Of a stretch of DNA of 64,000 nucleotides, positions 882 through 62,765 are shown piece by piece; positions within the stretch are counted from its first letter, which is position 1, and the number at the start of each line of letters is the position of its first letter. The stretch is from NCBI GenBank assembly GCA_913061265.1, contig CAJXVS010000001.1, positions 496,001 through 560,000 on the forward strand, read 5' to 3'. The position numbers were made by a program, and so were the translations under genes. A model generated the notes under the pieces. It was not told where the DNA came from, did not search any database, and was given only the letters and a program-made list of their open reading frames with translations. The stretch comes from an uncultured Halobacteriovorax sp. (lineage in GTDB: Bacteria > Bdellovibrionota > Bacteriovoracia > Bacteriovoracales > Bacteriovoracaceae).

Positions 882-896
882 ATGCCCGAGTTACCC
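882..896 (+). repeat. Degenerate copy (copy 0) of the fpg-start-like core
   Basis: ATGCCCGAGTTACCC would be read as MPELP, followed by YLSRIS and a stop. It matches the first 15 nt of the larger repeats at 50907, 55421 and 57494, but the conserved downstream arm with TTTCA repeats is absent. It therefore looks like a half site or an eroded copy. Confidence 0.5.
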
Positions 897-947
897 TATC
901 TAAGTAGGATAAGCTGACGGGCTAGGTAGGTACCTGGTCACTTGCAT

Positions 948-7737: not shown

Positions 7738-7787
7738 AGGCATATCCCGTTTTTCAATAATACAAGTAACCAGATACCTATTAGAAT
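7738..7787 (+). repeat. Dispersed repeat (47-bp family), single diverged copy
   Basis: The segment 'atatcccgtttttcaata' followed by 'atacaagtaaccagata' and 'cctattagaa' matches the two tandem units at 9219-9312 with several changes. A shorter copy lies at about 719-750. Confidence 0.6.
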
Positions 7788-9218: not shown

Positions 9219-9312
9219 AGACTTATCCCCATTTTCAAATATACAAGTAACCAGGTACCTATTACAGACTTATCCCCATTTTCAAACATACAAGTAACCA
9301 GGTACCTATTAG
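9219..9312 (+). repeat. Tandem pair of a 47-bp repeat
   Basis: Two copies of a unit starting AGACTTATCCCCATTTTC and ending CAAGTAACCAGGTACCTATT follow each other directly (period 47) and differ at only one or two positions. Diverged single copies lie at 719-750 and 7738-7787, and the inverted tail (GGTACCTGGTCACTTGCAT) at about 929-947. The pair sits directly left of copy A of the 150-bp repeat. Confidence 0.8.
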
Positions 9313-9320
9313 AATGAGGT

Positions 9321-9469
9321 ATGCCAGAACTACCCGAATTTTTACCAACCAAAAGCTAGTCAAAAATTTCGATAGGTTACAAAGAAAAGATCCAGCCTCT
9401 TCGTTTCTACTTTCATTTGATTTCAATGAGTTTCATTTTAGTTCACGAAAGTGGTTCCACTGGTTCCAC
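9321..9469 (+). repeat. Copy A of the 150-bp fpg-start-like repeat
   Basis: Starts ATGCCAGAACTACCCGAA, which reads MPELPE and is then closed by a stop after FLPTKS. It is about 96% identical (six mismatches by eye in 149 nt) to copy B at 50907. The CCA proline codon is the same as in the true fpg gene at 61950. From about +89 it carries spaced TTTCA/TTCAC words (period near 10). It directly follows the tandem 47-bp repeats. Confidence 0.85.
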
Positions 9470-34322: not shown

Positions 34323-36359
34323 ATGCTTAGTAAATTTTTAAACATTCTACTTTTACTTTGTCTTACAAGCTGTCTTGAAAAACAAGTCGTTGATGAGGAA
34401 AACAAACCTAATTCCAGTCTCGGAAAAAGGGTAGATAATAATGAAAAGCTCTACGCTCCGGACAGCTTTAACTTTGACACCTCAAAACTTATAACTATTG
34501 AGACTTTTTTGTACTATCAAGGTGATCCTTTAAAAGACATAGTTGCTAGAATTTATGATGATAAAAACAATTTACTTAAACAAACTAAAACAGATGAAAG
34601 AGGACGTGTTTTTACTTCTTTAAAGATTCCGCGACATACTAAATATTTGTTGATTAAACCTGCCGTTGTTGGATTAAATGTTTCGAAACGTCTTGATTTA
34701 GTTAGTTTATCCCCTCCTCCTTTACCTAAAGTAGAGAAAATATTTTTATCGCTCATAACTTTTTTATTTCCCTCAGTTGAAGCAGGAACTGTACCCGATT
34801 ACACAGGAGAAAAAACAAACATTCGTTATCTTGCTACTGAAGTTGATACTAATGGAGTGCCAGATAATATAATAAAAAATTTTGAAAGTATTCCTCTGGA
34901 GTTTTTAAAAAGGGTTGATTCATCTCTACCCGAAAGAAAGCCCGTCCCAACCTTCCACCCTCAATTCATCACGGATTCGGCTAATACGAATATTCATTTA
35001 TCCGAAGAAGCTGATATCTGGGTAACTTTCTTACATGAAGGTGCAGGCTATAAGAACACAATGGGTTTTTTCACATACTCCAAAGATAATCCTCCTACCA
35101 CGCCAAGTGAAATAAATGAGCTAATAATAGCCTTTCCAAACATGTCACTTACTGACTCGGGGGGCGGCTTGGTCCCAGGAGATACCGTACACCTAGGTCG
35201 CTACCCTGTAGGAACTTCTGTGGGTTATTTCATAATGTCGAATTCGTGGAATGCCTCAACGAAAAAAAATACCGATGGCCTTAATGTTTTTTATTCAATA
35301 TTAGAACTTAACACAACAGAAAATTCTGATTTTAAACACCATAATGTTTTATTTTGGGATGAGGACTTTCAAAAAATTGTTATTGGATTCGAAGATCTAT
35401 TTCGCTCTGGAGGCGGAAGTGATGAAGATTTTAATGATGCCATTTTTTATGTCTCGACTAACCCAACGACAGCAGTCTTGACAAAAAACATAGCCCCTAT
35501 TGATACAAACGAGGACCAGGATTCAGACGGTATCGGAGATCAATATGACGATTACCCACAGGATCCTCTAAGGGCATTTAATAATTACTACCCTCTTCCT
35601 AACAGCAGAGGCACGCTCCTTTTTGAGGATCTTTGGCCTTATCAAGGAGATTATGACTTTAATGATTTAGTCTTAAGCTATCACTTTAATTACATAACTA
35701 ACTCCAAAGGTGAAGTTAAGGAGATTATTGCAGATATTAAAATTAATGCCACTGGTGCCTCTCATAGTAATGGCGTTGCACTAATGCTTGATATCCCCGC
35801 AGTAAATGTAGCGCAGGTTACAGGTAACTTAATTTCAGAAAACTACATCAACCTAAACCCAAATGGGACTGAAGCGGGAATGGAAGATGCTGTCATCATT
35901 TTATGTGACAATGTTAATAATTATATGCCTAAGTATTCAAATGTTTTCAATGGAATGAACCTTCAGCCATATCAATTTGAAGTTATTATAAATTTAGATA
36001 CTCCAGTGAAAATTGGAGACATAGGATTTCCTCCATACAAGCCATTCTTAATAAAAGACATGGATCGTACAATGGAAATTCACCAAGTGGACTATACTCC
36101 AACAACTAAATTCAGACATCACTTTCTTAAAAGAGGAGATGATAGATCAGAACCGGAACAAGGGAGGTTTTTTAGAAATAAAGAGAATATGCCGTGGGTT
36201 TTAAATATACCTTATGAAATGCCCCACCCTAAAGAAAAGATTCCTATCTTTAATGCCTTCAAAGAGTTTGCCCCATGGGCAAAAAGTGGTGGGGCATTTT
36301 TTTCAAATTGGTATGAAGTAAGAGGCTCAAACATTGATATGAATAAGGTGGTAAATTAA
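34323..36359 (+). CDS. LruC-domain lipoprotein with DUF4114-like and thrombospondin type 3-like segments
   Basis: 678 residues, lipobox LTSC (Cys about 17). Residues 40-120: beta domain with YYQGDPLKDIVARIYDD. About 340-380: FEDLFRSGGGSDEDFNDAIFYV, DUF4114-like. About 395-420: DTNEDQDSDGIGDQYDD, a thrombospondin type 3-like calcium-binding repeat. From about 430: LFEDLWPYQGDYDFNDLVLSY, the LruC-domain signature, continuing to GFPPYKPFLIKDMDRTMEIHQ and NMPWVLNIP. Surface or periplasmic, Ca-binding by motif. Paralogs lie at 41000 and 42297. The acyltransferase gene starts 1 nt after its stop. Confidence 0.8.
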   Translation: MLSKFLNILLLLCLTSCLEKQVVDEENKPNSSLGKRVDNNEKLYAPDSFNFDTSKLITIETFLYYQGDPLKDIVARIYDDKNNLLKQTKTDERGRVFTSLKIPRHTKYLLIKPAVVGLNVSKRLDLVSLSPPPLPKVEKIFLSLITFLFPSVEAGTVPDYTGEKTNIRYLATEVDTNGVPDNIIKNFESIPLEFLKRVDSSLPERKPVPTFHPQFITDSANTNIHLSEEADIWVTFLHEGAGYKNTMGFFTYSKDNPPTTPSEINELIIAFPNMSLTDSGGGLVPGDTVHLGRYPVGTSVGYFIMSNSWNASTKKNTDGLNVFYSILELNTTENSDFKHHNVLFWDEDFQKIVIGFEDLFRSGGGSDEDFNDAIFYVSTNPTTAVLTKNIAPIDTNEDQDSDGIGDQYDDYPQDPLRAFNNYYPLPNSRGTLLFEDLWPYQGDYDFNDLVLSYHFNYITNSKGEVKEIIADIKINATGASHSNGVALMLDIPAVNVAQVTGNLISENYINLNPNGTEAGMEDAVIILCDNVNNYMPKYSNVFNGMNLQPYQFEVIINLDTPVKIGDIGFPPYKPFLIKDMDRTMEIHQVDYTPTTKFRHHFLKRGDDRSEPEQGRFFRNKENMPWVLNIPYEMPHPKEKIPIFNAFKEFAPWAKSGGAFFSNWYEVRGSNIDMNKVVN

Positions 36360-42296: not shown

Positions 42297-45200
42297 ATGA
42301 AATACTTCTTTTTAACTATATTATTGGTGACTTCACTTTCTTGTAAGCTTCAAGAAGAGGCTAAGCCGGAAAAAAAGAACAGCAATGGAACAAACGAGCG
42401 AAGTGACAGAGTCATAACTCCCAAAGGCTTTGATTACAAAACTACATATACTTTTAACAAGACCTTCTTATTAAGGAATGAAGATAATAGTCCTGCCTCT
42501 AATATTTCAGTCACCGTGTCTTACGAAGATACGAAAGAGCAAAGTAAAGTTCTAGCGAAGTTCAACACTAATACCACTGGGGAATTAAAGCTCTCCCTCT
42601 CAATACCGGCTCACATTAGTAAGCTAAAGCTACAATACCAGGGCCTTAAAAGTAATATCATTCGAACTATTATAGCTCGAAGAGGTATAACCGGTATGTT
42701 GCTTGAAAGCCTCTTGGATCTTTTTTTCCCGAGAGCTATGGCGCAAGACCTTTCACCTTCACAGGTTAGCTACTTCCCTTCGCAGTGTACTTTTGGAACT
42801 TTAGGATTTGAAGATTTATGGCCGACCCATGGAGATCAAGACTTTAATGATTTAGTCGTCAACTATAACTTCGCTCAAAACATAGATGCCAATAATGAAA
42901 TCACATCCATGGATATTACAATTCAATTTGTAGCTTCAGGCGCTGGGTACAGTAATGGCTTTGCCATAGAGCTTCCCATCTCTAAAGATAAGATAAGCTC
43001 CATTTCAGGCAATCTCATAACGGATAACTACTTAAGCTTTGAAGAAAGCGGTGTAGAAGCAGGACATGATAAAGCGGTCATTATTATTAGTGACGATGTA
43101 AGTCAGCAAATACCAAAATTCTCTAACGTTTATGAAGGAAGGTTTCTCTTTGCTCCCTATGAATTTAAAGTCACGGTCAATTTCAATACTGGAGTTAAGG
43201 TTCAGGACTTAAGTATGCCTCCTTACAACCCCTTTATTATTGTTAATAAAGATCGCGGCAGAGAGGTTCATCTGCCAGACTATGCTCCAACGAAGCTTGC
43301 TGATAAAAAACATTTTGGTCAATATCATGACGACTCCGTCCCAGAGTCCGGTAGGTACTATAAGGACTCCGGTAACAATCCCTGGGCCATTCATATTCCT
43401 GTTGCCTTTAACTACATGAGAGAAAAACAAAAAATTAATAACGGTCATAAAAACTTCGCCACTTGGGCAACATCTAAAGGACAAAGCTTTAACGACTGGT
43501 ATCTTGGAAAAGAAGGTTATAGGAATGACTACTTCCTCTTTAAAAAGAGCCTTCCTCTCGTTTTAAGTCCAATCATTACCTGTGAGGATGAAGAGAACAC
43601 TGTCACAGTAACCATTAAGGATGGTGCCGAGGCTGAAGAGGTCATTGATACCATTCAGGTTTCAGAAATTTCTATTAACGAAACCCATTATGAAGATAAT
43701 TATTCAACTAATGTTAATTTTCAACCTTTTAATAATATGGATGGAAAAAGAGAGCTGCTCTACGCCAAAGTCTCCTATAACCTATCCCCTTCAGTATCAA
43801 TCGTGGGAAAGAATATTGGCGGCAACTCCTATGGATCTGCTATCGTCTCCTCAAGTCAAGATGCTTCTTTAAGTTGGTCCAATGGAACTCTAGCCAATGA
43901 TAGTTTTTCAAGATTAACTAATATTGCCAAAATATATTCGGGAACATTTAATCAATACCTTGAATTTCTAAATAACGGCTCCCATCATACAAGATTCCCT
44001 AAATTTAATTATAGCGAAGACTTCAGAGGACAGTTTGTTTTTTCTGGTGATGACCTCACCATCTTTCAGGGCGCCAATCCCATTTCTTTTACCCTAGATC
44101 ATTCTGTGACAGCGGACTTGAATTCATATGAAGGGTCTCAGGTTAGTGTCGATACTAATTTTAGGATCCAGGGAAGCGTAATCATTAAATATATTTGGAG
44201 GCAGTTTGGAACCTCAGGGGTTAAGTTTAATGATTTAAACTTAGAAAATGCCCTTAGGATTAAACTAGGCGTTTGGTCAGGAGGGATTAATTCGGCTCAC
44301 TGTAGCGGAGTGGAGACTTTAGACCTAAGCGGCTACGGGATAACAGATCTAAAAGGTCTCGAGATATGCACTGACCTCAAAACATTAAATTTAAATGATA
44401 ACAATCTATCGAATATAGACCTCCTAAGTAATCTTAGCCAATTAAAGAAACTCTATCTTAAGAAAAACAACATCTCAAACCTACAAGGTCTAAGTGAATT
44501 ACTTTCCCTGGAAAGACTAGACCTTTCAGAAAATGAAATTACGAACCTATCGCCTCTAAGTAATTTAATCTCGATGAAGTATCTTTACTTTCATAAAAAT
44601 AGTGTCGCCGACATCTCCCCTTTATCTAAGATGGTTATTCTAGATACTTTGCAGGGAGACTGGAACTCGATTGTTAAGGTCGATGCCATTTCAAATTTAG
44701 CTAATTTAAGGAGTATACAGCTACGCTTTAATCAAATTGATGATGGTACGCCTTTTGGGACCCTCCCAGATATTCGATATCTAAATCTAAGAACTAACAA
44801 GTTGAAGAAGTTTGATTGGATAAGTAACTCAACCTCTCTTTCACACTTGGTCGTTTCCGATAATCAAATATCAGCACTTCCAAACCTAGAAAAGCTTGAT
44901 CTTATGACGGGACTCTATCTTGATAATAATCCCATAACTAACCTCACGAACTTAGCTCCGGTGAAAGATACGATGGTTACAATGCTCCTTAGTAATACTC
45001 AATTACAAAACACATCTGAATTAAAAGATATGCCCAAACTGACAACACTGCACTTAAACAACATAACTGTTGATATGAACGATCTAATCACCTCACCATT
45101 GTTAGTAGATCTAAATTTTACAAATAATAATATTCTCAACAAAGAACAATTCCATAACTTAACTAACTTAAAATATTTAAATCTTCATGGTTCAGGTATA

Positions 45201-46559
45201 ACAGCCGTAGACTTTCTGACAAGTAATACGGCCCTTCAAAGACTTTACATGAACCACAACGATATTGTTGACCTATCACCTATAAAGGAAAAATTTCCTG
45301 ACCTCAGTCGTCTCTATGTTTCTCATAGTCGAAATCTGAACTGCTCTTCTATTAATACTCTTTGGTATTACAAGTTTAGAAAGGTCAATACAACATGGAA
45401 CTATGAGCCCGAAGATTGCGTGATTACAGAAAGAGACCCCCTTACGGATTTTAGCTCTATTTTCACTGACTATAACCTCAGTTATCAGGTTAGAAATACT
45501 ATTGATAAAATGAGCGGTGACTTAGTCGCGGCTGACCTTTTAGGGAAGTCCACACTAAAGGCCAATAACATGAGTATTGAGAGTCTTGAAGGAATTCAGT
45601 ATTGGCCTTCTCTGACTCATTTAGAGCTAGCTACAAATACGATCTCAGACATAAGTCCATTACTTAGCTTACCTAATCTCGATCATCTTAATATTTCCGG
45701 GAACCCAGTTACAACCTTACCTGAGCTCTTAAGTAGAGATAATATTACCGAATTAAATATTTCAGATACTCAAATCAAAGAGATCTCAGAACTCCTTAAT
45801 ATGCCAAGTCTCAGCAAGGTTACTATGACTGGGCTAGACCTTGGCTGCGAACAGCTTATCTATGTTAATCAACTAGCGGCTAAAAACATTACAGTTGAAG
45901 TAAGTCCTTTTACTAATTGTAATCAGCCTGAATATTTATTAGAGGAAGAATCATCAGCATCCCTTATTCAGCACGCAAGTACTGACCTATCCAGTAATGA
46001 TATTAGTTATTCAGAAAGCTCTGAGCAGGAACTTGCCTTTGGAGCTTTTGATAATCTAAATGATACGGTAGAGCTCTTAGAGGCGAAAATAACATTCACT
46101 ATAGTAAGCTCTATCAGCGGACTAGCGAAGAACTTCAACAGCTCCCTCCCCCTAACTGGCTCACTTGAAATTTCAAATACTGTACTCATAACAAGTAGTG
46201 CCTCAAATCAATTAGCTCTTCCATTGGGAACAAGTTACTCAGACTTAAGTAAATCATTAGGCTTTACCAATAGCTTTGATTTAATTCCCCAAAGTACAGT
46301 ACAGGACTATCAAGATTACCGCTCCAGTGGAAGCAATACCGAAAAGTTTAAGGAAGTTGATCTAGATGGAACAAATGAAATAATCATCACCTTCACCGGT
46401 TCAGAGCTAAACTTCTTCAAAGCAGGAAGTCAGCCAACTTTTAAAGTTAACCTTGAATCAAATGCATCAGTTAAATCTGGTAATGAGGATCTGCTCTATG
46501 ACTTTGATTCGAGTACAAATGTGCAAATAAAAGTCGAATATAAATATCAAAATAAATAA
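42297..46559 (+). CDS. Giant LruC/leucine-rich-repeat lipoprotein
   Basis: 1420 residues, lipobox LSC (Cys about 16). N-terminal beta domain, then LruC: FEDLWPTHGDQDFNDLVVNY at about residue 175 to MPPYNPFIIVNKDR. A beta-rich domain (about 455-640) is repeated at the C-terminus (about 1215-1420); both start with FxPFNNMDGKRELL / AFDNLNDTVELL and end with a V-x-Y-x-Y or IKYIW-like strand, as in choice-of-anchor type domains. Between them lie about 14 plus 5 internalin/SDS22-type leucine-rich repeats (LKTLNLNDNNLSNIDLLSNL period 22). Likely exposed at the surface and binding a protein or glycan ligand. Confidence 0.82.
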   Translation: MKYFFLTILLVTSLSCKLQEEAKPEKKNSNGTNERSDRVITPKGFDYKTTYTFNKTFLLRNEDNSPASNISVTVSYEDTKEQSKVLAKFNTNTTGELKLSLSIPAHISKLKLQYQGLKSNIIRTIIARRGITGMLLESLLDLFFPRAMAQDLSPSQVSYFPSQCTFGTLGFEDLWPTHGDQDFNDLVVNYNFAQNIDANNEITSMDITIQFVASGAGYSNGFAIELPISKDKISSISGNLITDNYLSFEESGVEAGHDKAVIIISDDVSQQIPKFSNVYEGRFLFAPYEFKVTVNFNTGVKVQDLSMPPYNPFIIVNKDRGREVHLPDYAPTKLADKKHFGQYHDDSVPESGRYYKDSGNNPWAIHIPVAFNYMREKQKINNGHKNFATWATSKGQSFNDWYLGKEGYRNDYFLFKKSLPLVLSPIITCEDEENTVTVTIKDGAEAEEVIDTIQVSEISINETHYEDNYSTNVNFQPFNNMDGKRELLYAKVSYNLSPSVSIVGKNIGGNSYGSAIVSSSQDASLSWSNGTLANDSFSRLTNIAKIYSGTFNQYLEFLNNGSHHTRFPKFNYSEDFRGQFVFSGDDLTIFQGANPISFTLDHSVTADLNSYEGSQVSVDTNFRIQGSVIIKYIWRQFGTSGVKFNDLNLENALRIKLGVWSGGINSAHCSGVETLDLSGYGITDLKGLEICTDLKTLNLNDNNLSNIDLLSNLSQLKKLYLKKNNISNLQGLSELLSLERLDLSENEITNLSPLSNLISMKYLYFHKNSVADISPLSKMVILDTLQGDWNSIVKVDAISNLANLRSIQLRFNQIDDGTPFGTLPDIRYLNLRTNKLKKFDWISNSTSLSHLVVSDNQISALPNLEKLDLMTGLYLDNNPITNLTNLAPVKDTMVTMLLSNTQLQNTSELKDMPKLTTLHLNNITVDMNDLITSPLLVDLNFTNNNILNKEQFHNLTNLKYLNLHGSGITAVDFLTSNTALQRLYMNHNDIVDLSPIKEKFPDLSRLYVSHSRNLNCSSINTLWYYKFRKVNTTWNYEPEDCVITERDPLTDFSSIFTDYNLSYQVRNTIDKMSGDLVAADLLGKSTLKANNMSIESLEGIQYWPSLTHLELATNTISDISPLLSLPNLDHLNISGNPVTTLPELLSRDNITELNISDTQIKEISELLNMPSLSKVTMTGLDLGCEQLIYVNQLAAKNITVEVSPFTNCNQPEYLLEEESSASLIQHASTDLSSNDISYSESSEQELAFGAFDNLNDTVELLEAKITFTIVSSISGLAKNFNSSLPLTGSLEISNTVLITSSASNQLALPLGTSYSDLSKSLGFTNSFDLIPQSTVQDYQDYRSSGSNTEKFKEVDLDGTNEIIITFTGSELNFFKAGSQPTFKVNLESNASVKSGNEDLLYDFDSSTNVQIKVEYKYQNK

Positions 46560-47668: not shown

Positions 47669-49282
47669 TTAGTCGTTTTTTGCATATTCCTTCAAAATTT
47701 TTCTTATTTCTTCCAACAAAAAAGGCTTTGTAATAAAGCCAACCATCCCCGCATCGAGACAAGCTTTTTTATTTTTCTCAAATGCATTTGCAGTCATAGC
47801 TAAAATTGGCGGTGCATCCTCTTTATATTTACTTATTATTTCGACAGTAGTCTCAATTCCACTCATCACGGGCATTTCCATATCCATAAAAATTAAAAGA
47901 TATTCTTCCTTTGGCTTTTTATTTCCAGACGCTAGAAGGTCTAAAACTTTCTTTCCGCTCTCTAGTTGTATAGAATCGAAACCCAGTTTTTTAAATGTAT
48001 GAAAAGCTACCTTTCTATTGAATTTATTATCATCAACAACTAGAACTTTTTTAGTTTCAGTGGAACAATAATTATCAATATCAAACTGATCCTTTACCTT
48101 TGTTGAGTTTGACGCTTTATTTGAGGTCACAAGATTCAAACGAAATTCAAAGGTTGCCCCCTCGCCCTTCTTGCTCTTGACCTCAATCTGCCCACCCATA
48201 AGACGAACGATCTGTTCACAAATAGTTAACCCTAAACCTGTACCTTCTATCTCTTTATTTTTAACACTGCTTAATTGCGAAAATGGTTGAAAAAGATTCT
48301 TCATTTCTTCAGCTGAAATGCCATGGCCTTGATCAACGACAGAGAAAATGATTTCTGTTTTATCCCTAGTATTTATGCTCCCCGAACTACAGATAATTTC
48401 AATTTTTTTACCTTTTGGGGAAAACTTTATTGCGTTTGATAACAAATTATTTAATATCTGCTGAATTCGTATTTTATCACCTACATAATCATCGTGTTTT
48501 AAATTGTTTCGAAATTCAACTGTAACATCTCGATCTTTGGCCATTGCTTGAAAAATGTTAAGAACCTCATTTACCATCGAGGTAATATTGAGATTATCTT
48601 TCTCAAGAACGACATTACTAGATTCAAGTTTAGAAAAGTCGAGAATGTCATTTAAAAGTTTTAGAAGAATCGCTCCTGAGGAGTTAATCGTTTCGACTAT
48701 ATCCTTGTCCTCTTCATTTAAATCTGATTCAACTAATAATCTCGACATCCCTAGAATTCCATTAAGAGGGGTTCGTATTTCATGAGACATCATTGCCAGA
48801 AATGAGCTTTTTAATTTTGCTAGCTTATCCAGAGCTTCTTTCTCTTTTTCCGATTCAATCTTAGCCTCAAGTAAAGATTTATTTCTTACTTGAATTTGCT
48901 CGATAACATTTTTCATTATCAAAGCATCTGCGAGGAGACAATTTGGATGTCTCATTTCTTTAGTTAGTCCATATTGTGAAATTTCTGATATTTGTACTAA
49001 AGCTGGCCAAAATACGAAAAGAGTTTCTTTGTCTAATTCGTGGTTTGTTCCTCTAAGTTTGAAGGGTAGTTCTAAATGTTTTGCATGGATAATTTTATTA
49101 TTTATTTTTTTGGAGAAATCAGAAAAACATTTATCTTTTTGGAACCGAGGTTGAGAAAGTTCAAAGACATCCAAAAGAAGACTACCTATAACCTCTAATT
49201 TTAAGAAGTATTCTGATGCTTCAGTAATCATTCCTTTAGAGTCACATACTAACCAAAATGGTGATAAAGTGTTGAAGTCCAT
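47669..49282 (-). CDS. HNOBA-domain hybrid histidine kinase (NO-signalling partner)
   Basis: About 537 residues. N-terminal 150 residues match an H-NOX-associated domain: SPFWLVCDSKGMITEASEYF, LSQPRF, LFVFWPALVQISEISQYGL, NCLLADALIM. A short coiled coil (ESEKEKEALDKLAKLKSS) leads to the H-box AMMSHEIRTPLNG and the HATPase domain (NNLLSNAIKF, DQGHGI, GTGLGLTI). C-terminal receiver: VLVVDDNKFN, acceptor Asp in IFMDMEMP, TKPFL. The kinase would be controlled by the H-NOX protein encoded just upstream and pass phosphate on through its receiver. Start at ATG 49282 (TTG 3 nt earlier possible). Confidence 0.88.
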   Translation of the reverse strand: MDFNTLSPFWLVCDSKGMITEASEYFLKLEVIGSLLLDVFELSQPRFQKDKCFSDFSKKINNKIIHAKHLELPFKLRGTNHELDKETLFVFWPALVQISEISQYGLTKEMRHPNCLLADALIMKNVIEQIQVRNKSLLEAKIESEKEKEALDKLAKLKSSFLAMMSHEIRTPLNGILGMSRLLVESDLNEEDKDIVETINSSGAILLKLLNDILDFSKLESSNVVLEKDNLNITSMVNEVLNIFQAMAKDRDVTVEFRNNLKHDDYVGDKIRIQQILNNLLSNAIKFSPKGKKIEIICSSGSINTRDKTEIIFSVVDQGHGISAEEMKNLFQPFSQLSSVKNKEIEGTGLGLTICEQIVRLMGGQIEVKSKKGEGATFEFRLNLVTSNKASNSTKVKDQFDIDNYCSTETKKVLVVDDNKFNRKVAFHTFKKLGFDSIQLESGKKVLDLLASGNKKPKEEYLLIFMDMEMPVMSGIETTVEIISKYKEDAPPILAMTANAFEKNKKACLDAGMVGFITKPFLLEEIRKILKEYAKND

Positions 49283-49287
49283 CAAGT

Positions 49288-49833
49288 TTAAAAAGTCACT
49301 CTAAAAGCGAAAGAGCAAGTAACACCTTTTAAATCTTCCACTATCTCTATTTTACAAGGCTTATCAAACATCTTAAAAATTCCTTTTAGCAGTCCAACAA
49401 CAAAGAATTGAAGCGGAAGCTCTCGGCTAGTAGAATAATAAACTAGAACTTTATTTTCAGACTCTCTTTCAGTCCAAAAAGATGGTGCAGTTAGATTATC
49501 AAAAGTTAATTCTAACCTTGAATGTAGTGCATCCAGAGACTCGATTAATTCAACAGGTCCCGAAGCAAAAGAATGCAAAATCGTTTGGTACTCTGATTCC
49601 TGTGTATAGTGAACCCAAAACTTTCCAAAAGATTCCAAAATAACCTCTGCTCCCTCTCCAGTTAATTTTGAATAAGCAAGAATAGCGTCAAGAGTTACCT
49701 TGTCATCATATTGTTCGAAATCATTAAAATCTAATGGTTCAGAATTAAGAGATTTGCAAACTGCTACCCAAGCCTCATCTCCTTTATCTTCAATAATCAT
49801 AGTTTTAAAAGCTTTATTGATTAACCCATACAT
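49288..49833 (-). CDS. H-NOX heme nitric-oxide/oxygen-binding sensor
   Basis: 181 residues from MYGLINKAF, the standard H-NOX start; the ATG at 49833 has GGTGGGG about 6 nt upstream. Conserved features: GDEAWVAV, YDDKVTLDAILAYSKLTG, LESFGKFWVHYT, proximal heme-ligand His in LDALHSRLEL (about residue 104) and APSFW. The heme-propionate motif YxSxR reads YYSTSREL here: the Arg is displaced by one or replaced by Ser. It binds heme and NO and regulates its neighbour kinase. The pair is a two-gene unit with no other members. Confidence 0.88.
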   Translation of the reverse strand: MYGLINKAFKTMIIEDKGDEAWVAVCKSLNSEPLDFNDFEQYDDKVTLDAILAYSKLTGEGAEVILESFGKFWVHYTQESEYQTILHSFASGPVELIESLDALHSRLELTFDNLTAPSFWTERESENKVLVYYSTSRELPLQFFVVGLLKGIFKMFDKPCKIEIVEDLKGVTCSFAFRVTF

Positions 49834-49974
49834 ATAATACCCCACCGTTAAATTACATAAATTATAATCCTAAAAGAGATGCCCTCCAATCACTTAATTT
49901 GAAAAACTATATTACTCAAGATTTTATTATTACCTCGATAGTTAGTTTAGCTTATTCGTTGTAATATAAGGCCT

Positions 49975-50904
49975 ATGCCAGAACAAACTAGAAAAGATTG
50001 GAAAGAACAAAGAGTTGTGATGGAACTTAATGCTCTAAGACGAGGTCCATTAGAAAAAAAGAGTAGAAATAGAAAAGAGTTATTTTCACATTTCGTTACT
50101 ATGATTAAGCTAATTATAAAATTTATTCCTCTTAGACTTCTAGGAAAAAATCTAGCTAAAGAATTACTTTACAGCGAGGAAGAATATTATTTTACTGACC
50201 TCCCCATTGCTTTTGATGGTTTAAGAATAGTTCACCTTTCTGATCTTCACTTAGATGAAAGACCTGATATGATTTTAAAAGTTAATGAGCTCTTAAAAGA
50301 TAAGTCTTTTGATCTTATAGTTATTACCGGAGATCTCTTCTCCTTTACTATCAATAACTCTAAAGAATTTAAAATATTTAAGGATGACTTCTATAAAATG
50401 TTAGAGGGGTTGCATCCAATCCATGGAATTATTGCTGTTCCCGGTAATCATGATTCTTCTGATCTAATTGAATTGCTAGAATCGGAAAGAGTTAAATTTT
50501 TATGTAATCAAATCCACTACATAAAAAAGAAAGGTCAAACCCTTCAAATTATTGGTACGGATGATCCTCATTACTTTTATTCTGACAACAGCCTAAAAGT
50601 ACTAGAAGAGGCTTCCAATCATTTCTCTGTTGCCTTAATTCATTCTCCAGAATTATCCTTTGAAGCATCGAACGCCGGGGTCAAGCTCTATTTATGTGGA
50701 CATACTCACGGTGGACAAATTAGATGGCCATTTAATTACGCTCCTGTAAAACGTATATTTAGGGCACGGGAGTTTTACTTTAGAAGATGGAAGTATAAAA
50801 AAATGGAAGGCTTTACTAGTACAGGTATAGGAACCTCTGCAATTGCTTGTAGGATAAATACTAGGGCTGAGGTCGTATGTCAGATTTTAAAAAGAAAGGT
50901 TTAG
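49975..50904 (+). CDS. Calcineurin-like metallophosphoesterase, YaeI/YkuE type
   Basis: 309 residues. Metal ligands in order: VHLSDLHLDE (DxH), VITGDLFS (GD), AVPGNHDSS (GNHD), IHSPEL, LCGHTHGGQIRWP (GHxH). A hydrophobic stretch at about 37-55 (FVTMIKLIIKFIPLRLLG) may attach it to the membrane, as in YaeI, which hydrolyses a lipid-linked phosphodiester. Ends directly before copy B of the 150-bp repeat, whose ATG lies 3 nt after the stop codon. Standalone gene. Confidence 0.85.
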   Translation: MPEQTRKDWKEQRVVMELNALRRGPLEKKSRNRKELFSHFVTMIKLIIKFIPLRLLGKNLAKELLYSEEEYYFTDLPIAFDGLRIVHLSDLHLDERPDMILKVNELLKDKSFDLIVITGDLFSFTINNSKEFKIFKDDFYKMLEGLHPIHGIIAVPGNHDSSDLIELLESERVKFLCNQIHYIKKKGQTLQIIGTDDPHYFYSDNSLKVLEEASNHFSVALIHSPELSFEASNAGVKLYLCGHTHGGQIRWPFNYAPVKRIFRAREFYFRRWKYKKMEGFTSTGIGTSAIACRINTRAEVVCQILKRKV

Positions 50905-50906
50905 CT

Positions 50907-51055
50907 ATGCCCGAACTACCCGAATTTTTACTAACCAAAAGCTAGTCAAAAATTTCGATAGGTTACAAAGAAAAGATCCAGCCTCTTCGTTTCTATTTTC
51001 ATTTGATTTCAATTGGTTTCATTTTAGTTCACGAAAGCGGTTCCACTGGTTCCAC
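50907..51055 (+). repeat. Copy B of the 150-bp fpg-start-like repeat
   Basis: Starts ATGCCCGAACTACCCGAA (MPELPE, then FLLTKS and stop); AAAGG lies upstream in the end of the preceding gene. About 96% identical to copy A (9321) over 149 nt, then the two diverge. The TTTCA-type words follow from about +89. All copies are on the plus strand. Confidence 0.85.
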
Positions 51056-55343: not shown

Positions 55344-55692
55344 GGAAAAGTAATGGAGCTTTCGGTTCCACTAGATTAGAAATACTTTAAAAACGTAGTT
55401 TAAAAGCATCAGGAGATAGTTTGCCCGAGTTACCCGAACCTTCTTAACCATTCCCAATCACTTCTTTAAAATCGGCCAGTTACATTTGATAGAGGCGTCT
55501 TCCACTATTTTAGGTTTTCATTTAACTTCATTCTATTTCACGTTGTTTCACGACGTCGGCGTGACTGGCGGGATTCGAAGGTAAGGACCAATAAACACCC
55601 TATTTAAAAACTCGGCCCCCTATAATTCTCTATTATATGAGGTAACTCTCCCGCCTGCGCGGCCCGCTATGAAATTAAATTTTTAAGAAATT
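55344..55692. other. Intergenic region holding copy C and an integrase-gene remnant edge
   Basis: No complete gene. After the LysR stop come short non-coding sequence with AGGAG at 55411, copy C (55421-55573), the element-end-like sequence GGCGGGATTCGAAGG (looks like a reversed tRNA T-arm), and about 100 nt of unassigned sequence that leads into the recombinase remnant at 55693, whose frame is closed by a TAA at 55684. Confidence 0.5.
55421..55573 (+). repeat. Copy C of the 150-bp fpg-start-like repeat
   Basis: Starts TTGCCCGAGTTACCCGAA, reading (M)PELPE then PS and a stop. Here AGGAG lies 5 nt upstream, so the site has a complete translation start. The core differs from copies A and B by synonymous changes (GAG for GAA, TTA for CTA). 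The arm with TTCATTT/TTTCACG words runs to 55573. Directly left of the recombinase remnant. Confidence 0.85.
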
Positions 55693-56034
55693 TTGTTAGG
55701 ACCTGCTATACTTCTATATAATGTGAATGGTAGACCTCTTAATTATTGTACAATCCAAGTTAACTATAAGAAGGCTATTAAGAAAGCTGATCTGCCCTAC
55801 TCTGGAACTCATATCCTAAGACATGGAATGGCTACGCTTGCTAGAAAAGTAGGTGGTGGTCTAGATGCTGTTGTAGCGATGACAGGGCATAAGGATTACA
55901 AACTAGCGGATCATTATTCTAAACTTGATAGTGAATATCAGCGGGAGCTTAGTGAGAAGATTATGGGAGTTATGCGGGAGAAAGAGAAAGTTGATGTTTC
56001 GGAGTTTGGGAATGTTATTGAGTTGAGGAAATAA
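55693..56034 (+). pseudogene. Tyrosine recombinase, C-terminal remnant
   Basis: 113 residues, frame opening at TTG after a TAA; no N-terminal core-binding domain. Contains the second Arg region HILRHGMATLAR (H-x-x-R), MTGHKDYKLADHYSK with the second conserved His (GHK) and the Tyr nucleophile, and a short tail. The first catalytic Arg and Lys are lost with the rest of the gene. It belongs to the integrase family found beside attachment sites; it may be the remains of the enzyme that inserted one of the 150-bp-repeat-flanked blocks. Confidence 0.85.
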
Positions 56035-56100: not shown

Positions 56101-57225
56101 CTATAGAGAATCGGAATAGCCACAATAAGTACCATCCCAAACTAAGTTGATATGATCAGAGCTTTTAAGATCGTCATTATACACATGAATATTAACAATC
56201 CCTTTTCCTCCTGCTAAAGAGCCATTTCCCTCTCGAGAAACAATTAAGAGCTTATCAACATGGCCAACCATAGAAGAGTAATTATTCACATCCTTAGGTA
56301 TTGGCTTTCTCAAGGGTCTTGTATCTGCAATCTTTGAAACAGTGCTTATTACTAGAACTGGGCAATTTAATTGTTTAGAGAGTTCCTTGAGTTTTATACA
56401 TTTCTCAGCATCTTCTCCGGTAATATCTTGTAAATGATCAATAACTACTGCTCCTAAATCTTTTTTAATCTCGGAGGTATGCTTTTTTATTCCTTCCAAG
56501 GGGATATCTTTATTGTAATGATAATAGATGGGCTTTTTTTGAAGCTTAATATAAGTCTCTTCATATCGCTCCTTATCGCCTTCATCTAAATTTTCAATAT
56601 CTCTATCAATTTCACAAAGCTGAACCGCGAGTCTTTTGGTCCATTCACGATGATCAAACTCCGTCGAATAAAATACGATAGGCTTATTCGTTTGATCCAT
56701 CAGACTATTCGCAATATGGACAGTGAGAGCTGTTTTCCCCATACCTGGCCTAGCTGCTATAACTATTAACTGGTCTTTAGATTCCTCTTTAAGCAACTTA
56801 TCTAATTTCGTAAATCCTGTAGTTATACCCATAAAAACATCCTTCTCCTTAGCTGTTAAAATTGAAGAAGGATTAATTTTATCCTCCTCAATCTTTTGAA
56901 TAATATTCTGTAGGGTTAATTTACGATCTTCTAAGTCAGCAATTTTAGAAATTGTTCCATTTAGTTGATTTAAAAAAATACTTCTTAAGTCTTCATTTTG
57001 TAGTTCTTTTGTTCTACGGATAATAGAAATTTCTTTTAGAGAAAAACCTAAACCTTGAAGCGATTTAATGTTTTTAATTCTTGAAATATCCTCTTCTGCA
57101 TAAAGCCTATAATTACTTTCATATTGCCGTACCGGAGCAAGTAATCCTTTCTCCTCATAAATACGTAAAGCCTTAACGCTTACTCCAGATAATTTTGCTA
57201 TTTCAGAAATTTTTAAATTTTTCAT
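56101..57225 (-). CDS. MerR-type regulator fused to a DnaB-like ATPase
   Basis: About 375 residues from ATG 57225 (CAGGGG upstream). Residues 1-70: MerR winged helix ISEIAKLSGVSVKALRIYEEKGLLAPVRQYESNYRLYAEEDI, then a dimerisation coiled coil (to about 120). From about 130: DnaB/RecA fold with GFTKLDKLL, Walker A IAARPGMGKTAL, FYSTEFDHREWTKRLAVQL, Walker B VVIDHLQDI, CPVLVISTVSKIADTRPLRKPI, and an end GIVNIHVYNDDLKSS. The KQR arginine-finger region of DnaB is replaced (YNDDLKSS), and the DnaB N-terminal domain is absent. Role unknown: perhaps an ATP-gated regulator or defence factor. Confidence 0.85.
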   Translation of the reverse strand: MKNLKISEIAKLSGVSVKALRIYEEKGLLAPVRQYESNYRLYAEEDISRIKNIKSLQGLGFSLKEISIIRRTKELQNEDLRSIFLNQLNGTISKIADLEDRKLTLQNIIQKIEEDKINPSSILTAKEKDVFMGITTGFTKLDKLLKEESKDQLIVIAARPGMGKTALTVHIANSLMDQTNKPIVFYSTEFDHREWTKRLAVQLCEIDRDIENLDEGDKERYEETYIKLQKKPIYYHYNKDIPLEGIKKHTSEIKKDLGAVVIDHLQDITGEDAEKCIKLKELSKQLNCPVLVISTVSKIADTRPLRKPIPKDVNNYSSMVGHVDKLLIVSREGNGSLAGGKGIVNIHVYNDDLKSSDHINLVWDGTYCGYSDSL

Positions 57226-57246
57226 ATTAACCCCTGGATAGAACAA

Positions 57247-57758
57247 TAAACCCTCCCCCTAGGGAGAGCTCAAGCGGTAATTTAAAGAATTTAGTATTTT
57301 ATAACAAGTTTAAGGCTAGAAGCGTTTAATTAAGACCATTTAATCATTGATTTAAACAAAGCGTTAATTCAAAGAGGCTACCTCCCCTAACAAACCCAGT
57401 TCTGGCATCCAAATTCGCCAACTCTCCCCAAAAGTTCTATAAAAGTCCTACAGGCCCCCTCTTGACCACCTAACCCACTGAAATTAAAGAGAATGCCCGA
57501 ACTACCCGACCTATCTAACTAAACCTCACGCTCTCTTTTAAAAACGTTTACTTACTAGAGGTAGGGACGCCTTCCGTAACTTTTGGATTTAATTTTACTT
57601 CACTCAATTTCACGTTGCTTCACAACTTCGGCGGGAATGGTGGGACAAGTAAGAAAAAGGGTACGCAATACTTTTTCTAATTAGGTACATTATACCTTTT
57701 TTCCAATTTTCTACTGCTTCAAAAAGGAAAGGTATCACGTAACCTATTTAGTTTTGCT
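57247..57758. other. Intergenic region holding copy D and repeat hairpins
   Basis: About 510 bases without a gene between two minus-strand genes. It contains the upstream region of the MerR-DnaB gene, copy D (57494-57644), an A/T-rich hairpin series with GGGTACGCAATACTTTTT near 57659 and GGTATCACGTAACC near 57732, related to the hairpins at 611 and 948. The last of these lies at the 3' end of the 57759 gene and could end its transcript. Confidence 0.5.
57494..57644 (+). repeat. Copy D of the 150-bp fpg-start-like repeat
   Basis: Starts ATGCCCGAACTACCCGAC, reading MPELPD, then LSN and a stop. Arm words TTTAATTTTACTTCAC and TTTCACGTTGCTTCAC align with copy C; the end GGCGGGAATGGTGGG corresponds to GGCGTGACTGGCGGG in copy C. 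Confidence 0.85.
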
Positions 57759-60080: not shown

Positions 60081-60438
60081 AATACGACTCTAGAAATTCA
60101 AGGTGACTTGTAAGATCGCACAGGCTCCGAAAAGGTTCCCCGACCAACCATTTTTTCTAATAACGAGTATATGTTTACGCCAATCCCATGGCAATTTATG
60201 AGAAAAGCACATACCCAACAACGCTAAGCGCCGTCTCGCATACAATCTAAAGTACTATAAAGATTCATGCTCTGCCCGAGTTACCCGATGCCTAATTCAA
60301 CTAACAACAGAATCAATCTAATTGGCAATTTAAGGACTAAGTAAGGCTTTCCACTTTTTTAAAGCTTCATTTCTTTTCACATCAATTAAACTTTAGATCA
60401 TTTTCTTTAATTTTATAGGGTGAGAAAGGTGAGCAGGT
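60081..60438. other. Intergenic region holding copy E
   Basis: About 360 bases without a gene. It contains copy E (60272-60420) and, to its left, the promoter region of the 57759 gene with GC-rich patches (CCCCGACC, GCGCCGTCTCGC) that stand out in this AT-rich sequence. Confidence 0.5.
60272..60420 (+). repeat. Copy E of the 150-bp fpg-start-like repeat
   Basis: Starts CTGCCCGAGTTACCCGAT, reading (M)PELPD, then A and a stop. No clear ribosome-binding site. GGCTTTCCACTTTTTT and TTCATTTCTTTTCACATC align with the arms of the other copies, but the end is more diverged and the boundary is approximate. Confidence 0.75.
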
Positions 60439-61863
60439 TTACTTCTTTTTCTTCATAGGAATAATCTGGTTCTTTAAAAGACGAGGACTAATTCCTTTCT
60501 TCTTTGCATCAACCTTTAACTTCCTAAACTTGGGACTAGAACCGCCCCACTCTTCATAATAATATCTAAAGGTCATATATGCTTCCACAGACTTAAAAGA
60601 CATATTCAAGCAAACGTTATGCCTCCGAGAGCTTCTTTTTGAACTGAGGTCATACTTAATCTCATTTGCAATTTTAAAATCTTCGATAAAGTTACTTATC
60701 CCTTCCTCAGTGTAGTATGTAGAGCTAAAGCAATATTCAATTTCACTCCACTCACCATCTTTTATGTTACTAATATCTTTTAGCACAGACTCGTAGTAAT
60801 CCTTTCGCCCTCTACTATAAGGTTCACCTTTAATAATATCGTCAAAATCAAAATCCCTAACTTCATATATAAGGCTAGTATCAATATCTTCTACAATATA
60901 GTGATAACTTCGATTATTCGGGACAAGAATAGTAAACATATCCTCCCCTCTATAATAAAACTTGTTCAGAACTTTCAACCTAGCCCCTGGCTTTAAATAG
61001 CCTACTCTCCTCGGCGTAATCAAACGGTCATACCCCATACAATTAGAGCAAGGATTATGAAGTTCCATTAGCCTCCTATCCTCATAGTAGGCGACATCAG
61101 AGTTCCACCTTATGTAATTACTGACATCACTATTTTTAGGCCTATTTTTCTCATAAGCGATATGCTGTTTCGTAATGACAGTTCCGTTTAGAACCCCATC
61201 AGATAATTCCATAGTCCGACCAGAGTAAACCTCATGCTTGCCAGAGGGGCTTTCTAAACTCGAAAGATAATTATCGCTGAAGAATACGACATATAGAATC
61301 CCTCCAAGGAAAACCAAGCTCATTACCCTCGTAAGGTTTAGAAAAAAAAACTTAGTCTTCCCACTATCTTCCCCACTCTCTTCTTTTACTGACTGTAGTT
61401 CTTCAGCTTCTTTTTCGACAGTTTCTTCAACAGGTTTATTTCGAGTGATACGAGAAAGATTCCAGATGGCTTCAAAAATGAAAAAGATTATAAGGGCAGG
61501 CCAACACACTAAGAGCCCAAGTTCAATAAAAGTTAAAACGTGTATTCCAATGGAAGGGAGAAGCCCCCAATGAAAGTATCCTTTATGGTAGTACTTTCGA
61601 CTAAAGAACAATGATAGTCCTATCAAAATAATTATAAATACGCCTGAGATAGCCATTCCCTCGTAAAGGAACTTAGAAGAACGATGGTCTCCTAAGATAA
61701 GGTCTTTAACAATGTAGATGAACTGAGCAACTAGAATAGAGTAAATAAGGAAGCCATAAAGAAGCTTCTTATCATTATTTCCTTTAACTCTATCTATTCT
61801 CATCCCCATATAAAAAAAGAGAGAACAAAACATTGCTTGGTATATAAATGATTGAAGCTGCAT
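60439..61863 (-). CDS. Orphan polytopic membrane protein with a cysteine-containing extracellular domain
   Basis: 474 residues. Five or six hydrophobic helices in the first 200 residues (QAMFCSLFFYMGM, LYGFLIYSILVAQFIYIV, ISGVFIIILIGLSLFF, IGIHVLTFIELGLLVCWPALIIFFIF, LTRVMSLVFLGGILYVVFF). The soluble C-terminal half has PCSNCMGYD (a CxxC pair, about residue 270), a beta-rich segment LKPGARLKVLNKFYYRGEDMF and a charged end rich in Lys. No family recognised. It lies between copy E and the fpg start. Confidence 0.65.
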   Translation of the reverse strand: MQLQSFIYQAMFCSLFFYMGMRIDRVKGNNDKKLLYGFLIYSILVAQFIYIVKDLILGDHRSSKFLYEGMAISGVFIIILIGLSLFFSRKYYHKGYFHWGLLPSIGIHVLTFIELGLLVCWPALIIFFIFEAIWNLSRITRNKPVEETVEKEAEELQSVKEESGEDSGKTKFFFLNLTRVMSLVFLGGILYVVFFSDNYLSSLESPSGKHEVYSGRTMELSDGVLNGTVITKQHIAYEKNRPKNSDVSNYIRWNSDVAYYEDRRLMELHNPCSNCMGYDRLITPRRVGYLKPGARLKVLNKFYYRGEDMFTILVPNNRSYHYIVEDIDTSLIYEVRDFDFDDIIKGEPYSRGRKDYYESVLKDISNIKDGEWSEIEYCFSSTYYTEEGISNFIEDFKIANEIKYDLSSKRSSRRHNVCLNMSFKSVEAYMTFRYYYEEWGGSSPKFRKLKVDAKKKGISPRLLKNQIIPMKKKK

Positions 61864-61949
61864 TATGACATCCTTTTAGGTAGTTCCTAAATTAAATTAT
61901 AAGTGATATTTAGTTCATCTAGATAATTTATTTAACAGGACGACGCACC

Positions 61950-62765
61950 ATTCCAGAACTACCCGAAGTAGAAACAATTAGATCCCAACTAGAAAAGAAA
62001 ACCCCCTTTTCTATAAGAACCATGGAACTCTCCAAGGTAGTCAAATCAATCCTAAAAGACAGAGAGTTCAACCCAGAAGGAAAGACCATCTCCCATATAA
62101 AAAGAAAGGGGAAGCTTCTCAACATGCACGTGGATGATAACCTCCACATCCTCTCTCATCTTGGCATGAGCGGATCATGGAGAATCTCAAAAACCAAAGT
62201 CACAGAAAAACATACTCATGTTCAGTTTTGCGGAACAGATAAAAATAGGAACCCACTTTTTCTAGCCTATGTAGATCCAAGGCGATTTGGTTATATGTAC
62301 TTTTTAAAAGAAGCCACCGCTCAGGTTCATCTTGATAAGCTTGGTGTTGATATAGCTTCAGATGAATTCACCGCCGATTATGTTTATGAAATTCTAAGAC
62401 GCTATCCTAGTCGTCATTTGAAGGTTCATCTTCTTGATCAGAGTTTTTTCGCAGGTTGCGGAAACTATATAGCTTCAGAGATTTGTGCTCGCGCGGGGAT
62501 TCGCCCTACTCGGCGCTCTGGTAAAGTGACTCGTAAAGAATGTGACGCCATTGTTCGCGCTACCGGTGAGGTCTTGAATCCTATTATGGAAAGTAATGGG
62601 CTTACCTTTTCTGGGGGCTATTCTGATACTAATGGTGAGATTGGGGACGGGGTTAAGCACCTTGTGGTCTTCTGGCAGAAAGAATGTCAGATGTGCGGGG
62701 GTGTTGTTAAGAAGATTGTCCTTGGGCAGAGAGGGACTTTTTATTGCCCAAGCTGCCAAAAGTAA
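61950..62765 (+). CDS. mutM: Formamidopyrimidine-DNA glycosylase, apparently starting at ATT
   Basis: About 272 residues. The sequence PELPEVETIRS, with the catalytic Pro2 and Glu3, starts at 61953; the codon before it is ATT, and upstream in frame there is no ATG, GTG or TTG before a TAG at 61920. AGGA lies 9 nt before the ATT. Starting at the first ATG (62022) would remove the catalytic residues, so ATT is preferred. Other features: GMSGSW, DPRRFG, GCGNYIASE, and the zinc finger CQMCGG ... CPSCQK with GQRG Arg. It removes 8-oxoguanine from DNA. Arginine codons shift from AGA to CGN at about 62395. Confidence 0.85.
   Translation: MPELPEVETIRSQLEKKTPFSIRTMELSKVVKSILKDREFNPEGKTISHIKRKGKLLNMHVDDNLHILSHLGMSGSWRISKTKVTEKHTHVQFCGTDKNRNPLFLAYVDPRRFGYMYFLKEATAQVHLDKLGVDIASDEFTADYVYEILRRYPSRHLKVHLLDQSFFAGCGNYIASEICARAGIRPTRRSGKVTRKECDAIVRATGEVLNPIMESNGLTFSGGYSDTNGEIGDGVKHLVVFWQKECQMCGGVVKKIVLGQRGTFYCPSCQK

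Follow-up and report, generated by a model that had tools for sequence, protein, structure and literature searches.

The fpg gene and its start codon

The 64,000-nucleotide stretch analyzed here (the window; positions 496,001 to 560,000 of contig CAJXVS010000001.1 from an uncultured Halobacteriovorax sp.) carries the DNA-repair gene fpg (mutM), present as a single copy in this 3.97-Mb genome of the Halobacteriovorax group (G000). The encoded protein has the PE N terminus of Fpg together with the Fapy_DNA_glyco, H2TH, and zinc-finger domains, with PF01149, PF06831, and PF06827 each scoring above the cut-off. The NCBIfam fpg and PRK01103 models also gave full-length matches, yet 15 to 17 bits under their cut-offs. 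Fpg of the sister genome G001 (locus L032), a metagenome-assembled genome of Halobacteriovorax sp., is 87% identical.

The first-pass annotation had proposed that this gene lacks a canonical start codon and begins with ATT, and rereading the window sequence bore this out. No ATG, GTG, or TTG occurs in the fpg frame between the TAG at 61920 and the PELPEVE code. The codons following the TAG read ATA ATT TAT TTA ACA GGA CGA CGC ACC ATT CCA GAA CTA CCC GAA GTA GAA, with ATT directly ahead of Pro2, AGGA 9 nt before it, and the PELPEVE code intact, all as described. The first in-frame NTG inside the gene is the ATG at 62022 (residue 25), and a start there would cost the protein its catalytic residues Pro2 and Glu3. 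ATT at 61950 is the sole near-cognate start that leaves proline at position 2.

Core copies and island remnants in the window

At the first codons of fpg lies a sequence core with the consensus TG-CC[AC]-GA[AG]-[CT]TA-CCC-GAA. Seven copies were found in the window, all on the strand of fpg (+) and none on the opposite strand (−), compared with 0.14 expected from shuffled sequences. Other features of this region include two island left ends of the same type and the remnant of an integrase (Table 1). Nucleotide homology (blastn) between G000 and G001 starts at 61950, that is, at the start codon, and blastn found no match to the window in the 29 kb upstream of the sister fpg. Matches by tblastx outside fpg in these two genomes were not taken as homology on account of their linked-set E-values. 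Together, the core copies, the left ends, the integrase remnant, and the edge of homology with the sister genome argue that the window is an accretion array with the fpg start at its live end. Its blocks may be single islands or decayed or merged ones, and the 41.6-kb block, which carries polysaccharide and central-metabolism genes, may include native DNA. The gene of the last block had too few homologs to trace that block.

Table 1. Features of the fpg locus and of the array upstream of it (window coordinates)
Feature	Coordinates	Strand	Remark
fpg (mutM) coding sequence, 271 codons, from ATT	61950..62765	+	Intact frame, domain matches
ATT start codon	61950..61952	+	No NTG back to TAG 61920
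AGGA, putative ribosome-binding site	61937..61940	+	9 nt before ATT
In-frame TAG closing the fpg frame upstream	61920..61922	+	
Live attachment core in the fpg 5' end	61951..61967	+	One mismatch, the ATT
Fossil core copy	60273..60289	+	CTG at start position; last block begins here
Fossil core copy	57494..57510	+	ATG at start position
Fossil core copy	55422..55438	+	TTG at start position
Fossil core copy	50908..50924	+	ATG at start position
Fossil core copy	9322..9338	+	ATG at start position
Fossil core copy	883..899	+	2 mismatches; ATG at start position
Remnant (C-terminal third) of fpg-type tyrosine integrase	55711..56028	+	59 to 64% identical
474-amino-acid cargo open reading frame of last block	60439..61863	−	Divergent from fpg; without Pfam family
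Island left end, 153 nt	9317..9469	+	95% identical to 50903-51055
Island left end	50903..51055	+	Same type as 9317-9469

The first ~28 nt of the 153-nt left end were also seen after the core in genomes G002 and G111 (loci L107 and L131). These two genomes encode the same Fpg protein, which shares just 32% identity with Fpg of G000. A 46-nt repeat family (AGACTTATCCCCATTTTCAAATATACAAGTAACCAGGTACCTATTA) is located at 717-762, 7738-7783, 9219-9264, and 9266-9311, close to two of the core copies.

The core as an attachment site in relatives

In many relatives, the first 17 to 18 bases past the start codon (CCCGAACTACCCGAAGT) recur on the fpg strand, 1.9 to 31 kb upstream of the gene. These second copies have a leader and a start codon of their own in front, and the match ends sharply after GAAGT. 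Islands fill the space between the core copies, and the second copies mark their ends. Several islands close with a helix-turn-helix protein (HTH_17) followed by a tyrosine recombinase (PF00589) that ends ~90 bp before the fpg start. An integrase adjoins fpg in 46 of the 102 loci sampled from the family Halobacteriovoraceae, with its end 75 to 177 bp upstream of the start codon. Across 511 kb upstream of 106 loci, 35 core copies lay on the fpg strand versus 5 on the opposite one. Integrase adjacency, the second core copies, and this strand bias point to the first fpg codons as the site where, in Halobacteriovoraceae, a family of tyrosine-integrase islands attaches. Two hallmarks of tyrosine-integrase islands at the 5' end of a protein gene are found: copies of the target core in direct orientation flank the islands, and in the 46 loci an integrase gene lies at the end beside the target; of the latter, the window holds the remnant alone. 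A comparison with integrons revealed no inverted repeats of at least 40 nt, short attC-like hairpins having had no separate search. What recurs is a direct core derived from fpg, and the only model matched by the integrases is the general PF00589.

A GGTTAG or GGTTAA motif precedes many fpg starts and is common to island right ends. The idea that it couples fpg translation to an upstream gene was ruled out for the window, where the upstream gene is divergent. Draft contigs of several relatives start or stop within ~200 bp of the fpg core (G089:C22, G115:C70, G124:C117, G083:C19 and C125, G066:C12, and G069:C184), as would be expected were the core repeated or the junctions mixed in the sample. 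In G015 (locus L073), ~9 kb upstream of fpg, a more extended fossil of the gene's 5' end spans 24 codons (PELPEVKTIKNQQTSILPIKI...) with GTA at the start position and continues past the core.

Start codons of fpg across the family

Comparison of the start codon among relatives had been suggested in the first-pass annotation. In the 102 family fpg loci, the codon at the start position was ATG in 71, ATT in 12, TTG in 8, GTG in 6, ATC in 4, and GTT in 1; the ATT and ATC cases were checked as full-length frames. G108 (ATG start) and G026 (an M-P-P-E variant) were set aside from this sample, and proteins other than Fpg that match IPELPEV by chance (L034, L041, and L046 to L048) were excluded. The ATT at fpg is therefore no isolated error, because ATT, ATC, or GTT recurs in 17 of the 102 loci.

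As a control, glmS was chosen, in which the second residue (Cys2) is likewise invariant within an MCGIVG motif. All starts were ATG in the ~121 genomes with a clear motif (0/~121 non-NTG versus 17/102 for fpg; Fisher P ~1e-6), which argues against a generally laxer use of start codons in these genomes. A pattern search of fpg in the same phylum outside the family, to which this baseline is confined, gave NTG in 52 of 53 genes and thus at most 1 non-NTG start (P = 0.007 versus the family); the sole ATT (G235) sits within a longer open frame, which leaves this case ambiguous. AUU and AUC recur at fpg in Halobacteriovoraceae, apparently as a trait of the islands and not of a single strain.

Apparent inheritance of the start codon with the island

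If islands deliver the start codon, its identity should follow the integrase. On an integrase tree of 34 loci, a small sample, the non-NTG label required 3 changes, a count as low as this arising in 0 of 500 shuffles. With the same loci placed on an fpg tree, it required 6 changes (166 of 500 shuffles), and across the full fpg tree 17 changes were needed for 18 rows (341 of 500 shuffles). One clade of ATT islands spans two host genera (G129; G061 and G070). Genomes G092 and G093 have in common a right end of ~125 bp including ATT, whereas G092 is homologous to G004, where the gene begins with ATG, from the start codon onward. The start codon thus appears to move with the island, since non-NTG starts track the relationships of the integrases and not those of fpg. 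The pair G113/G119 was considered as a before-and-after case and dropped, since only ~75 bp of the right end were homologous at the fossil copy and the wider flank was not.

Indirect evidence that AUU is used

G092 and G093, both with ATT, differ at 69% of synonymous versus 5% of nonsynonymous sites in fpg (dN/dS ~0.03). Within codons 8 to 25, which largely precede the first internal start (residue 18), 5.5 of 9.3 synonymous and 1.5 of 44.7 nonsynonymous sites differ; the N terminus is kept in protein, not in DNA. Comparison of the window gene with its sister gave proportions of synonymous (pS) and nonsynonymous (pN) differences of 0.80 and 0.09, respectively. These patterns indicate that fpg with AUU remains under purifying selection.

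The gene infC is known to start with AUU. In all 12 family genomes checked, infC had no well-placed ATG, GTG, or TTG behind its strong Shine-Dalgarno (SD) sequence, and the apparent start was ATT or ATA. It reads GGAGGTTTTTATTAAG in G000 (C6:249626-250135, locus L211) and GGAGGTGGGTTATAAG in another genus; the remaining loci are L200 to L210. In a few of the 12 frames, a TTG lies at the SD sequence or ahead of it. Initiation at AUU or AUA thus probably operates in Halobacteriovoraceae. The same arrangement, an ATT, ATA, or ATC start with an SD sequence at the usual spacing, is found at fpg in the form AGGA-N9-ATT. AUU is a rare and probably weak start, and translation of fpg would probably lie below that of infC because fpg has only AGGA. 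On sequence grounds, fpg is probably initiated at its AUU; such initiation may be sensitive to initiation factor IF3, and, as proposed in the first-pass annotation, translation may be weak and perhaps tuned, with possible effects on the mutation rate.

A model of repeated insertion and its alternatives

We consider it likely that islands inserted repeatedly at the first codons of fpg, exchanging leader and start codon each time, and that the last junction left AGGA-N9-AUU. Recombination within the core would spare the coding part of fpg, and codon 2 would then be preceded by the right end of the island, which brings along a leader, a ribosome-binding site, and a start codon. The earlier start would be displaced upstream as a fossil core copy, and successive insertions would have built the array that fills the window. 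Initiator tRNA would then initiate fpg at AUU, and removal of Met as usual would leave Pro as the catalytic N terminus. That an inserted element had replaced the fpg 5' end was suggested in the first-pass annotation, and this idea gains strong backing from the seven core copies, the integrase remnant, the onset of sister-genome homology at the start codon, and co-inheritance of codon and integrase. The AUU would have arrived with the last block and not by a later point change, and the islands may be mobile to this day.

Three observations weigh against this model. Non-NTG starts were not enriched beside an integrase (8 of 46 loci with an adjacent integrase versus 9 of 56 without), and no sigma-70-like promoter above chance was detected in the 86-bp fpg leader. 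Furthermore, the last block in G000 is without an integrase of its own, and the origin of the ATT is not directly traceable; therefore, a later point change from ATG could also account for the codon in this genome. According to this alternative, islands do target fpg, but the start supplied by the last block was ATG and became ATT through a subsequent G-to-T change, tolerated as drift unconnected with the island under a low need for fpg translation. ATT is one such step from ATG, TG is retained in all six fossil copies of the window, and non-NTG loci are scattered over the fpg tree, all in keeping with a point change, as is the missing integrase. However, non-NTG starts group together on the integrase tree and are shared between host genera, which speaks against it, as does the uniform ATG of glmS, and we regard a point change as unlikely, though the strongest of the alternatives.

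Decay of fpg in G000, with the start lost and little or no translation, would agree with the subthreshold NCBIfam fpg score and with the generally poor performance of ATT as a start. Yet every domain is intact without a frame break, pS far exceeds pN relative to the sister gene, and G092 and G093 show purifying selection with ATT in both, which makes decay very improbable. Least credible of all is that an error in sequencing or assembly turned a true ATG into ATT. Several draft assemblies of the family do break at the core, but the same class of start occurs in 16 other family genomes, some of them near-complete with few contigs (G093, G011, and G092).

Comparison with known systems

Repeated island insertion at fpg resembles, in part, several described systems. 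SpyCI islands of Streptococcus pyogenes integrate site-specifically at the 5' end of mutL and change its expression, and a decayed SpyCI with a crippled integrase still sets mutL transcription from within that integrase (PMC3430984, PMC4689407). In both cases a DNA-repair gene carries a site-specific island at its 5' end, and the decayed SpyCI parallels the integrase remnant of the window. SpyCI differs in that its target mutL lies in an operon, the effect is transcriptional, and excision follows growth phase, whereas the target here is fpg, the islands lie in tandem, and the start codon would be exchanged as well. Islands and prophages at dusA swap the 5' end of the gene for their own sequence, after which the gene appears restored (PMC4482086). 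The replacement of the 5' end of a housekeeping gene by a site-specific island is thus shared, but the gene is another one; at fpg the exchange at codons 1 to 6 takes leader and start along, and non-NTG starts and accretion arrays are added. Streptococcal integrative and conjugative elements insert beside the start codons of genes such as rbgA, ebfC, and ftsK, keeping the N terminus and sometimes replacing the upstream region; hosts and elements are unrelated to those studied here, and fpg/mutM is absent from that report (PMC4701971).

With respect to the codon itself, the AUU of infC and the GTC start of Streptomyces sigR, which is restrained by IF3 (PMC5472188), are likewise non-NTG starts on conserved bacterial genes, and infC of the family also has ATT or ATA. 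Unlike infC, fpg has the weaker SD sequence and a codon that varies with the island. The sigR case illustrates the importance that a start of this kind can have under oxidative stress (PMC5472188). In the same bacterial group, the strain-variable Region B hot spot of Halobacteriovorax marinus also holds integrase genes and integrase pseudogenes; fpg is absent from that description (PMC5760749). No account of fpg/mutM as an island integration site was found in the literature searched, which left out most subscription literature.

Other genes in the window

In the block beside the integrase remnant, 56101-57246 (−) encodes a MerR-type helix-turn-helix domain fused to a DnaB-like helicase C-terminal domain, with weak PADLOC matches to mad1/mad8. 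A Haem-NO-binding (HNOB) protein is encoded beside a hybrid histidine kinase at 47669-49845 (−), and the two are likely a nitric-oxide sensing pair. Two large DUF4842/DUF4114 proteins (34323-36359 and 42297-46559) have a 65-nt repeat in common, and one of them carries leucine-rich repeats.

Implications

What appears new here is that the integration hot spot is the code for the catalytic N terminus of Fpg, which was not found in the literature searched, and that mobile DNA would exchange start codons as a unit. Gene finders limited to ATG, GTG, and TTG are expected to truncate or miss such N termini; in the window, the first such start is at residue 25. The fossil core copies preserve a record of former start codons. 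By swapping start codons, mobile DNA would have furnished close relatives with versions of the same repair gene that start with ATG, GTG, TTG, AUU, AUC, or GUU, a natural series for measuring directly how start strength affects DNA repair.

A more far-reaching proposal, which we put forward as speculation and think rather improbable, is that graded start codons (ATG, GTG, TTG, ATT/ATC, and GTT) in the attachment arm reset Fpg output with each insertion or excision, and that AUU junctions place 8-oxoguanine repair under IF3 together with infC. If true, this family of marine predatory bacteria would possess a mobile, heritable dial on its rate of G:C to T:A mutation.
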